Source: Plicaturopsis crispa FD-325 SS-3 (taxonomy: Eukaryota > Basidiomycota > Agaricomycetes > Amylocorticiales > Amylocorticiaceae). Taken from it: DNA of 64,000 bases. The notes beneath the pieces were generated by a model. The model did not search any database, was not told where the DNA came from, and saw nothing but the letters and a program-made list of their open reading frames with translations. The position numbers and the translations under genes are program-made. Each line of letters begins with the position of its first letter. Position 1 is the first letter of the stretch. Below are positions 4,251-22,470 of the stretch, one piece after another. The stretch covers positions 457,525 to 521,524 of the forward strand of contig KN832565.1 in the NCBI GenBank assembly GCA_000827205.1, read 5' to 3'.

Positions 4251-4793
4251 TAACGCCCAGTGTTACGAGTTTTGTGAACCACTTTATCACTAAGTACATA
4301 GCTATACAAATGCATAAGTACATAGATCATCGTGTGGGCTGCCTAGGGGAGACTATACCAACGTAGTCCTCATTCACAGTGCAAAAATTACCATCATAGT
4401 CATATGCTTGTCTCTCCGCGTTGGTACCGCGCCGGAATACACCTCGTCCTCCTCCTCCTCCCTTGCAAACAGTGCAATTTATGGTGCGTATGTGGATAGA
4501 CACTCCGGATACCAGAACTGTTGTGTTTTGAAAATTTCCCCGACCTTTGGCCTTCAAGCATCCAGAGAGATCCAGAGTTTACCAGAGTTCCACTTCACGG
4601 CCTATACAGGCCTTTACCTGACCGCGTGATGGAAAAAAAGGTCAGTTGCTCTGCAGGCACATGTATCCCTATCGGCTCATCAAAAGTCCTGTGTTTCATT
4701 CCCATAATTACACCTCTGTCCCACAGCCCCGATGCCTCTTAGCTAGCGCTTACGAGGCGTATCTCCCTCGACACTTTGATCGCGACGCCAAGC
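4251..4793. other. Intergenic, no gene supported
   Basis: Short reading frames here lack family motifs or splice support. A CTCCTC-rich microsatellite-like patch lies near 4447-4465. The right end is presumably the promoter of the GH16 gene. Confidence 0.5.
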
Positions 4794-6447
4794 ATGAAAT
4801 TTGGACGGCTGTTAACACTCCTCGGTGCCGCGTGTCTTCACTCGACCCTTACGGACCATCGCGTCAGTGCTTACGATCTTGTACGCGACTACTCCGGAGC
4901 CTCGTTTTTTGACCGATGGGCTTTCTACGGCAGTTGGGATAACTTGACCGATGGTGCGTTAGTTATACGTGCTACCCCCTTAAAACACGAAATATCTAAC
5001 GCGGAATACTCCAGGCGATGTAAACTTCCTTGACCACGACGACGCGACCTCGCAGCGATTGGCGTACACGAACGATGCTGGGAACGCCATCATCAAAGTC
5101 GACAACACGAGCAATGTCGCGTTCAACAACAAACGAAATTCGGTGAGTATCGTCCCCGCGCCACTAATCATTTGTCTCACACGGGACGGCTTTCTTGTAG
5201 ATACGTATAACGTCCAACGATTTCTACGATTTGGGCAGCTTGTGGATCATAGATGCGAATCACATCCCGTATGGCTGTGGGACGTGGCCCAGGTATGTCT
5301 GTGGCGTATCTTCGGAAACACGTCGCTGACCGTTCTCAGTATATGGTCCGCTGCACTTCAGACATGGCCGATAGGGGGCGAAATCGATATCATCGAGGCA
5401 ATCAACTTGATGAGTAACAACCAAATGGCGCTACATACGACGCAGGGCTGCACGAAGACGACTCCGCCGAACCAGACAGGAAGGTCCGGGCAAGGAGACT
5501 GCAGTCAAGGCTCCGGGTGCGTCGTCTCCGAGACCAAACCGAATAGCTGGGGAAGCGGGTTCGCCCAGGCTGGTGGTGGTGTATTGTGAGTTGCCACATT
5601 TCATTCATGCAGACGGCCGGCTAAGTGCGTTTGTCGTATGCAGTGCCGCGCAGTTCGATGTGGCAGGCATCTAGTGCGTCGTTTTCCTCGTCTATTTCTT
5701 ACACCTCACTGAGTGTCATGTTTCGAATCACAGCATGTGGTTCTGGAGCGTGAGTCACTGGGTCGAAATGCAAGTCTCCGTTTTCTTTCTAAACTTGGGA
5801 TTGAAAAATAGCGGCCTGACGTACCGGCCTCCATCAAAAACTCTACCTCAACGTCTGGAATTGACATCTCGGATTGGGGATCGCCTTCTGGCGCGTGGCC
5901 AACCTCGAGCTGCAACATCACCGAGTTCTTCACGGCACAGCAACTAGTGATCGATATAACCTTATGCGGTGTCTGGTGAGCTACCTTAAAGCGCGGTTTA
6001 GGAAGCTTGAAATGGGCCACAATACTCATGCATACTTTGTTCGTAGGGCGGGAGTCCCGGCATCCTATAATGCTACGTGCGCTAACCACGGGTCGACAGG
6101 ACAATGTGTGCGTGACCTAGCATATATTACAGTGTTCCCTATATTCAATGTTGTCACAGTATGCGGATACTGTAGTGGGCCCTGGGAGCCCGGCCATGGA
6201 TAACGCATACTTCGAGCTGCCGTTCATTCGCGCGTACACTACCACGGCTGCGGCGCCTTCTTCTACGTCCACACCCACGTCCACATCAGGGGCGGCCACC
6301 AGCTCGCCTACGACTTCTGCGGGGACGCCCGCAGGCACATCGCTGTCCGATAACGGGAGCCAGACGTCTGCGGCGACTCATCAATGGGGAGGGACGTATG
6401 CATGGCCCGTTCTTGCGTTCACTGTTGTGGGTGTTTTCTTTTACTGA
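4794..6447 (+). CDS. GH16 family beta-glucanase-like protein with C-terminal GPI-type signal
   Basis: The gene encodes a secreted glycoside hydrolase family 16 protein, probably acting on beta-1,3(4)-glucan of the fungal wall or plant material. The N-terminus MKFGRLLTLLGAACLHSTL is a signal peptide, followed by YDLVRDYSGASFFDRW, the usual start of fungal GH16 laminarinase-like enzymes. The catalytic block GGEIDIIEAINL has the E-x-D-x-x-E arrangement of nucleophile and acid/base. Cys-rich loops (GCTKTTPP, SGCVVSETKPNSWG) and FFTAQQLVIDITLCG match the family. A Ser/Thr-rich linker (about 6240-6390) and a final hydrophobic stretch YAWPVLAFTVVGVFFY suggest GPI anchoring. Eight introns were placed by gt-ag signals. 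The start is the ATG directly before the signal peptide. Endoglucanase versus wall-modifying activity cannot be decided. Confidence 0.87.
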
Positions 6448-20557: not shown

Positions 20558-21549
20558 AGACAGGGACCGCTGTCCTTCGCTTCTTTTTGTTGTCGGGTTA
20601 TACGTTGTTGTGCATATGCCAAGGGACTATGGAGCTACCGATTGCTTACGCACGAAACAAAAGTTGACATCGATATCTTGTTGGGTCCCCGTCGCCGCAT
20701 ACAGTTACAAGATACTACTTACTTCCTAGACACTGTACGCACCTTGCTTGCCCTCTGTCGTCTACATTCTTTGCACTTAGTCGAATAGTTTAATTGCTGT
20801 CGTCGTGACACCGTCAATGGCCAGTTTTAGCATACCCCGCTCTCAACAGCTCTCTCAACCTCGCAAGTGTTGAAAATTAGTTATAGGAAAGTCAATTTGG
20901 CGTGCGCCACAAATTGAACAGCTCCTACAAACGAAACGCTCACCACTGCCTTTTGACTCGGATCCGCTCTGGACCAGAGTCCCGTGCGCACCCAGTCGAC
21001 AGCTGTGATGAAACTTGGATCTTGTGTATAACCAGGCCATGCTAGCAAGACTGCGCTCAGTGCTCACCCAGTCTTGCCACTGGCATGCATGATGCTTCCG
21101 AGTCCTGGTCGTTTCTGAATACTTGAGTGGGTGTAGCTGCTGGTGGTATTGTAGCCTCGTCCCACAGCGCCATTCGTTTAAATGCACTACTAGGCAGCTA
21201 AGCCTGCAGCTTTGAAGCAGTGGCAGGAAGAGATCACAGTGGTCGGCGAGCCTGGGTGGTTTACTAGGCCGGCTCGGGACTCGGAATACAGTGTTTGGTT
21301 CCGGGCCCGGATCCAAACAACGCCTACGAGATTTCTGAGCACCATTCTGGGATTTCCCCCTGTCGTTCGTATTTCGTTTTGCGGCGTCCGCAAAATCGTC
21401 CCAGGGGCCGCAGTTCGCATCCAATCGCCCTCAAATTGCATTGCGTCGCTCGGGATGAGATGCACGCACAATTGTTGGCGCGGCACCTGCCACCACTTCC
21501 CATCAAATCTGAGCGTAAACATAGAATTGGTCCGTGCATCTTCCGCGCG
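20558..21549. other. Intergenic, no gene supported
   Basis: A minus-strand reading frame of about 190 codons lies here but has no recognisable domain and no splice or start support. It overlaps the promoter of the U2 gene. I treat the stretch as non-coding. Confidence 0.45.
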
Positions 21550-21556
21550 TATAAAA
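21550..21556 (+). promoter_or_regulatory. TATA box of the U2 snRNA gene
   Basis: A TATAAAA sequence lies about 30 nt before the predicted 5' end of U2 snRNA, the spacing of a polymerase II TATA box in fungi. Confidence 0.7.
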
Positions 21557-21581: not shown

Positions 21582-21848
21582 CTTACCACTCTGGCCTTTT
21601 GGCTTAGATCAAGTGTAGTATCTGTTCTTAATAGGTATGCGTTTTAAGCCAAGAGGCGGGCGTTCGAGCCCGTTTGAAGGAGTTCTTTGCTGACCGCCGT
21701 TTTCTTTGTTTTTGCAGTTTAACCACTATTATGGAGGCACCGCCTCCATTCTTGGTTATCTTATTTTTGCCGCCCTTGCTCCTTGTCCTCTGCTTGCACG
21801 ACGAGGACGTGATGACCTTGCCGCTGCACTACTGGCTTGTGTCGTCGG
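21582..21848 (+). ncRNA. U2 spliceosomal snRNA gene, interrupted by an intron
   Basis: U2 snRNA pairs with the intron branch site in the spliceosome. The 5' part matches conserved U2: GGCCTTTTGGCTTAGATC, then AAGTGTAGTATCTGTTCTT with the branch-recognition GTAGTA at 21615-21620. After removal of 21635-21717, TAATAG pairs with CTATTA to form stem IIa with a TTTAACCA loop. A perfect 8-bp stem IIb follows (ATGGAGGC/GCCTCCAT, 21732-21750). Next come an ATTTTTG Sm site (21764-21770), a GTCCTC/GAGGAC stem III, and a loop GCTGCACTAC resembling the U2B''-binding loop IV. The spliced length is about 184 nt, near the usual 187-196. Both ends are estimated. Confidence 0.9.
21635..21717 (+). other. mRNA-type spliceosomal intron inside U2 snRNA
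   Basis: This 83-nt insert starts GTATGC, has a TGCTGAC branch-point motif (about 21688-21694), a T-rich tract and a TTGCAG end. It splits the 5' strand of stem IIa from its loop, so the stem can form only in spliced RNA. It has no U2 homology itself. Confidence 0.87.
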
Positions 21849-22470
21849 GGGATTCCCTTTCTTTTCTTTGCGGCGCCGCTTACTCTCATCAGTCGATGTG
21901 GAGCAGATGTGCCGCAAATGAAGTATGGGTGCTCCATGGGTAATGGCTTAGGACTTCTCTTCACTAGGTGGTTCAGTTACGGAGAGCATTTGGGTATTTT
22001 TCGGGGGCACGATGATTCTAAGTCGTGGGCGATACAAAATGGAAGCACATCTAAATATTTTTCTCGAGATCTTTTCTACTGCTATGCAAGGAGGATTGAT
22101 GCGCGTACTCTATGTTGGCTTTACAATGTACACACTGTGGTGCACAAGAAATGGATCAGTTTTTGTCCAGGATTCTATGGAACAAATTGTCCTGCCGCGA
22201 TGTCCCATTCCATACAAGAGTGAGCAGTTTGAAGAGCATGGTGGATATGTACATACCGTGAGCCATCCACGTTCAGCTCATTCAAGACCAAGCTAGCACG
22301 CGATAGCCATGCTCGGGGTGTCTGGGACAATTCAAAACCATTGTCATTGTATGGAGAGGTATGATGAGTACAGGAGCACGGCGTAGGCCAGGTATGAGAT
22401 ATGCCGAGAGATGGTCCAAGATGACAGTAAATGAATCAGAAATAAATGCACGCCCTTCGCACTGAGGAGT
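21849..22470. other. Intergenic between U2 and the SprT-like gene
   Basis: No reading frame is supported. The left part may hold the 3' processing signal of U2. Confidence 0.45.

Follow-up and report, generated by a model that had tools for sequence, protein, structure and literature searches.

U2 snRNA genes with a spliceosomal intron in stem IIa in the basidiomycete Plicaturopsis crispa

The U2 gene in the window

I will refer to the stretch of DNA considered here, 64,000 nt of contig KN832565.1 of Plicaturopsis crispa FD-325 SS-3, as the window. A covariance search of the whole window with Rfam yields a single U2 match, to RF00004 at 21583-21854 (+), with a score of 92.3 bits for the unspliced sequence (gathering score 46) and an E value of 4.2e-17. 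The U2 snRNA gene, with its intron, is placed at 21582-21853 (+). All 192 positions of the model are covered, and the loop of stem IIa holds 90 bases instead of 7. GUAGUA, stems I, IIa, IIb and III and the Sm site are present, and every tested pair forms. An initial annotation, made from the letters of the sequence, had proposed a U2 snRNA gene at 21582-21848, and the match to the full model bears this out: its coordinates are off by no more than a few bases, and the 83 nt that it gave for the intron are exact. The missing half of stem IIa, stem IIb, the Sm site and stems III/IV, which it had assigned to the second exon, are each found there. The features are collected in Table 1.

Table 1. 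Features of the U2 snRNA gene and its upstream region, in positions of the window.
Feature	Position	Strand	Basis or remark
Promoter element TTGGTCCGTGC	21527-21537	+	Upstream of U2; comparison with other snRNA genes
TATA box	21550-21556	+	About 30 bp upstream of the RNA start
U2 exon 1	21582-21634	+	Rfam match; stem-loop I, GTAGTA and 5' strand of stem IIa; 5' end approximate
Branch-site recognition GTAGTA	21615-21620	+	In exon 1
Stem IIa, 5' strand TAATAG	21629-21634	+	In exon 1
mRNA-type intron, 83 nt, GTATGC...TTGCAG	21635-21717	+	Interrupts the apical loop of stem IIa
Conserved 27-nt intron block, AAGCCAARAGGCGGGCGTTCGAGCCCG	21646-21672	+	Comparison of intron copies
Branch motif GCTGAC, branch A at 21693	21689-21694	+	Fungal consensus RCTRAY, from passages of PMC5832005
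U2 exon 2	21718-21853	+	Stem IIa loop and 3' strand, stem IIb, Sm site, stems III/IV; 3' end approximate
Stem IIa, 3' strand CTATTA	21726-21731	+	In exon 2
Stem IIb	21732-21748	+	In exon 2
Sm site ATTTTTG	21763-21769	+	In exon 2

The boundaries of the intron were assessed by considering every GT-AG pair in 21582-21853 with a spacing of 30 nt or more, 60 in all, with three intronless eukaryotic U2 5' halves as controls. Against each of the three, the removal of 21635-21717 ranks first of the 60. The sequence so joined reads ...TTCTTAATAG|TTTAACCACTATTATGG..., at the place where the controls have CAG|UUUAA, which I take to be the junction between G52 and U53 in human numbering. Removal of the intron re-forms stem IIa and restores the U2 consensus. 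The branch A lies 24 nt before the end of the intron, the acceptor being TTGCAG, and so falls within the interval of 6-36 nt before the acceptor in which an RCTRAY branch was sought (from passages of PMC5832005). The proposal of an mRNA-type intron in stem IIa is thus upheld by the GT...CAG ends, the GCTGAC branch motif and the first rank of the exact removal.

Elsewhere in the window, a Pfam search of 20 of the 122 open reading frames of at least 130 aa found one PUF protein, one P450 and one SprT-like domain; one further frame had a weak PUF match below the cut-off, and 16 had no family.

The U2 family and the other snRNA genes

The assembly comprises 33.2 Mb in 49 contigs and contains stretches of N. 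A genome-wide search with the U2 model, in which 46 of 257 candidates were scored, found at least six intact U2 genes over the Rfam cut-off (L001 to L006, the last being the window copy), together with two weaker matches. All six carry an intron at the identical base, with lengths of 64, 69, 83, 82, 81 and 83 nt for L001 to L006, and both of two broken copies, on C8 and C4, carry one at that position, within their 3' halves. A DNA search with exon 2 gave 10 matches, of which six are the intact genes, two are pieces of the C8 copy, one is the C4 copy and one is a 40-base fragment on C7. The uninterrupted junction, TTCTTWATAGTTTAACCACTAT, was not found within 3 mismatches anywhere in the 33.2-Mb assembly. 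The initial annotation had called for a search for a second, uninterrupted U2 gene, and none was found with the Rfam model, for which 46 of 257 candidates were scored, with the DNA of exon 2 or with the junction pattern: the six intact and two broken copies are all split in the same place. The N stretches and the scoring of only 46 of the 257 candidates leave room for an intronless copy outside the readable sequence. Plasmid sequences gave no match to U2, and an exact U2 pattern, run against genome contigs, met three eukaryotic U2 genes in records of bacterial metagenome-assembled genomes, all intronless at this point; run against viral contigs, it met none.

The exons of the six intact copies have been conserved while their introns have diverged. 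Pairwise identity is 87-100% in exon 1 and likewise 87-100% in exon 2 (exon 1 of L002 being identical to that of the window copy), as compared to 67-92% in the aligned columns of the introns, whose lengths differ by up to 19 nt. GUAGUA, the Sm site and most helix pairs are kept in all six. In stem IIa, pair 49-66 joins bases on opposite sides of the intron; five copies have A-U there and L004 has U-A, a compensatory change that spans the intron and represents a single event in one copy. Pair 119-140 of stem III shows a second two-sided change. Broken pairs are found in stem I of L004 (11-25) and in stem III of L002 (121-138), and loop I is changed in L004.

All six introns have GT...CAG ends. 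An exact RCTRAY branch lies 21-24 nt before the intron end in four of them, and L001 (CTTAC, 16 nt) and L004 (CTGAA) have near misses. Ordinary introns of the genome were sampled from HSP70, where they were placed by protein likeness among GT-AG candidates of 38 nt or more that were in frame and free of stops. Of 13 junctions tried, 10 were kept, with A1, B3 and C1 dropped for want of a clean single intron. The ten introns measure 48-63 nt, and seven of them start GTAAGN or GTATGT. The U2 introns (64-83 nt) exceed all ten in length, and their ends are comparable. The predicted fold of the precursor leaves the 5' splice site largely in pairs, with a mean unpaired probability of 0.02-0.27, so that splicing could be slowed. 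A predicted hairpin within the intron is the sole point in favor of a different fate for the insert, either removal by a tRNA-type endonuclease or by self-splicing, or retention as an expansion segment. I regard these as extremely improbable, given the splice ends and branch motif and the variation of the introns in length and in sequence outside the conserved block. Retention, moreover, would disturb stem IIa, which covaries across the insert.

Might introns be a general property of snRNA genes in this fungus? That idea was rejected, as the intact-looking genes found for U4, U5, U6 and a probable U1 are uninterrupted. At least two U4, three U5 and six U6 genes lie over the Rfam cut-off, without an insert of intron size; these counts are lower bounds, from first-look searches in which 41-48 of 1072-1663 candidates were scored, and the U5 gene L032 was judged by its span, 118 nt for a model of 117 positions. 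U1 was not found in the assembly by RF00003 nor by two sequence patterns. Four copies of a probable U1 (L050, L052, L053 and L054), each running without a break and conserved over about 180 nt, came to light through the combination of the promoter element with a U1 5' end, and the element upstream of them is therefore not independent evidence. Rfam does not recognize them even at an E value of 10; I call them U1 because of their 5' end, ATACTTACCT, the conservation of four copies, and a partial likeness to the known U1 sequence. The fungus may have a diverged U1. Counting all four kinds, introns were found in none of 15 intact-looking genes.

The element GGYCCGTGC and a TATA box stand upstream of all six intact U2 genes, and GGTCCGTGC with a TATA-like stretch also stands upstream of both U4 genes. 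These features bear on the possibility that the six loci are a family of pseudogenes, the true, uninterrupted U2 gene residing in unassembled or N sequence. The two clearly broken copies, the N stretches of the assembly, and L004, with its lost stem I pair and altered loop I, are what one might expect in that case. The six copies, however, have kept their promoter elements, GUAGUA, Sm site and most helix pairs, and a compensatory change has been maintained across the intron. Furthermore, the assembly did yield six U6, three U5, two U4 and four probable U1 genes, and a working intronless U2 gene would have to have escaped it. I therefore consider a pseudogene family to be highly improbable.

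It is very probable, rather, that the window copy is one of six intact and probably functional U2 genes, each divided, at one shared base in the loop of stem IIa, by a spliceosomal intron of the ordinary kind that all six inherited from one ancestral gene and that is removed by spliceosomes that contain U2. The shared position and the block that the introns share indicate that the intron predates the divergence of the copies. The genes would be transcribed from a promoter of the U4 form, with a PSE-like element and a TATA box, and the precursor would be spliced by spliceosomes already containing mature U2. Stem IIa would form only after splicing, and a working U2 snRNP, with the spliced RNA as its presumed functional form, would then assemble. 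The supply of U2 would in this way depend on pre-existing U2. If every U2 gene is interrupted, rebuilding the spliceosome requires pre-existing spliceosomes, and U2 is inherited in part as a working machine. The family offers a natural test bed for the idea that snRNA genes acquire introns by reverse splicing, and for a feedback linking the capacity of the spliceosome to the supply of snRNA. With its diverged introns and the one block conserved inside them, it also lends itself readily to mutational tests.

The kind of arrangement is not new. Takahashi et al., cited in PMC2586383, reportedly described in 1993 an intron of the mRNA type in U2 of Rhodotorula hasegawae. That case, in a basidiomycete yeast, is likewise a spliceosomal intron in a fungal U2 gene; what differs here is that all six intact copies are split and that their introns include a conserved 27-nt block. 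Introns in fungal U6 snRNA genes, said to have been treated by Tani and Ohshima in 1991 and by Canzler et al. in 2016, are similar in that an RNA of the spliceosome is made from an intron-bearing gene, but in the present genome the six U6 genes over the cut-off are uninterrupted and U2 is interrupted. Passages of PMC5832005 describe introns in fungal U3 snoRNA genes that have GT-AG ends and an RCTRAC branch, are very similar among paralogues, and lie toward the 5' end of a structured RNA, and they name U3 snoRNA and U6 snRNA as the only small structured RNAs so far known to be often interrupted by introns. The U2 introns resemble those of U3 in their ends, branch, similarity among paralogues and 5' location. 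U3, however, is not part of the spliceosome, and its introns do not entail the circular dependence expected for U2. No report of a U2 intron in a mushroom was found in the literature searched, most subscription papers lying outside its scope, which makes this weak evidence of novelty; the citation of Takahashi et al. was the one trace of any U2 intron there. As far as checked, then, this fungus adds to the known case a new host, the presence of the intron in every U2 copy found, and the conserved block.

Some minor observations concern the other snRNA genes. By their upstream regions the genes fall into classes, U2 and U4 sharing GGTCCGTGC and a TATA box, and U5 grouping with U6: the U5 (L030 to L032) and U6 (L022 to L027) genes share an element close to CCCGTGGCTCAAACAAAATGCARGACTTTGATGA in the 130 bp upstream. 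The four probable U1 copies begin ATACTTACCTTGATGG, and a telomere-like sequence, GTCCTAACCCTAAYC, is conserved downstream of all four, about 200 nt past the U1 start. Three U6 matches fall under the cut-off, one on C21 and two on C7 (L028 and L029), the latter being halves of one copy (C7:1134597-1135024) that has the promoter element and is split by about 0.3 kb near the ACAGAGA box. It was considered as an intron-bearing U6 gene and rejected, since inspection by eye showed no GT-AG pair whose removal would restore U6, and since the ACAGAGA box is changed; it is apparently a broken copy.

The conserved block within the intron

The 27-nt block is 89-96% identical in all pairs of six of the eight copies (L003 to L006 and those on C8 and C4), and the rest of the intron, splice ends excluded, is 43-90% identical in the same six. 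L004 matches the other five at 89-93% in the block as opposed to 43-47% in the remaining intron. Much of the first half of the block is lost in L001, and the second half is lost in L002.

The first half, AAGCCAAGAGGC, is antisense to stem-loop I of exon 1. The longest exact match between exon 1 and intron is 13 nt in L002 and 10 nt in L005 (equaled in 0 of 500 shuffles in both cases), 10 nt in L003 (1 of 500), 8 nt in L006 (7 of 500), 7 nt in L004 (54 of 500) and 5 nt in L001 (353 of 500). By the longest Watson-Crick match, L002, L003, L005 and L006 thus stand out, and L001 and L004 do not. For duplex energy, the corresponding counts are 81, 49, 44, 353, 8 and 12 of 500 shuffles for L001 to L006, respectively, which is below 3% only in L005 and L006. 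Pairing of exon 1 with the intron in every copy was rejected, since the matches in L001 and L004 are not exceptional in length among shuffles. Exon 1 and intron of the window copy together fold better than 196 of 200 shuffles (z -2.29). The notion that the block hides the branch-recognition sequence until splicing is unsupported: in the predicted folds, the precursor makes GUAGUA less accessible in L004 and L006 only, and more accessible in the other four copies (L001, L002, L003 and L005).

The second half is predicted to form a hairpin, GGGC-GTTCGA-GCCC, that includes GTTCGAGCC, a match to GWTCRANNC, which I take to be the B-box pattern of tRNA genes. By eye, the pattern occurs in seven of the eight introns, L002 being the one without it, and the diverged L004 keeps it with R changed from G to A. 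The block might therefore be a promoter element for Pol III and TFIIIC, the intron being kept because it carries the promoter, an idea compatible with six functional, spliced genes. The intron of the Schizosaccharomyces U6 gene is a precedent for a promoter so placed, and TGGCTTAG in exon 1, judged by eye against the consensus, resembles an A box. I nonetheless think a Pol III element quite unlikely. A motif of 12 bits is expected by chance in an estimated 2-4% or so of such introns, the T runs in the introns and the Sm site should stop Pol III, the upstream promoter has the form of that of U4, and L002 lacks the motif, yet has the same exon 1 as the window copy.

The block may serve as a structure that aids or delays splicing, may be a promoter element, or may be an inverted duplication left over from the birth of the intron. 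One could also imagine that it regulates, the block pairing with stem-loop I and burying the 5' splice site, so that the supply of mature U2, or of a factor that opens the fold, would set the rate of pre-U2 splicing and U2 dosage would regulate itself across the whole family. This last scheme is speculative, and I would give it only a small chance of being right.

Inserts in the broken copies

The copy on C8 is broken after GTAGTAT by an insert of 2,205 nt (C8:519770-521974; L010 4771-6975), and U2 resumes at the same base. Its exon 2 contains a second insert, of about 216 nt (L010 7116-7331), with ATCTTAT on either side, which resembles a small transposon with its target duplication. The copy on C4 also breaks off after GTAGTAT, and U2 resumes about 3 bases later, at GTTCTT, 59.4 kb away (C4:784073-843505). 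I take the break in both copies to be at nt 39 of U2. The same site is given in passages of PMC4640811 for the U2-targeting retrotransposons Keno and Utopia, whose hosts named in those passages are animals, oomycetes and an amoeba, with no fungus among them.

The C8 insert contains no open reading frame over 152 aa. The two inserts have their first 38 nt in common, and both contain degenerate repeats of the U2 5' end, CCACTCTGGCCTTTTGG, those in the C4 insert noted by eye. Both inner flanks of the C4 insert run into N, amounting to 3,961 and 3,915 bases in the parts examined, which lie on either side of the middle 49.6 kb. Near these N stretches, inverted copies of about 370-400 bp can be seen by eye (L009 about 4390-4790 and L021 about 5620-5985), as would be the case if the C4 insert contained a large element bounded by long terminal inverted repeats.
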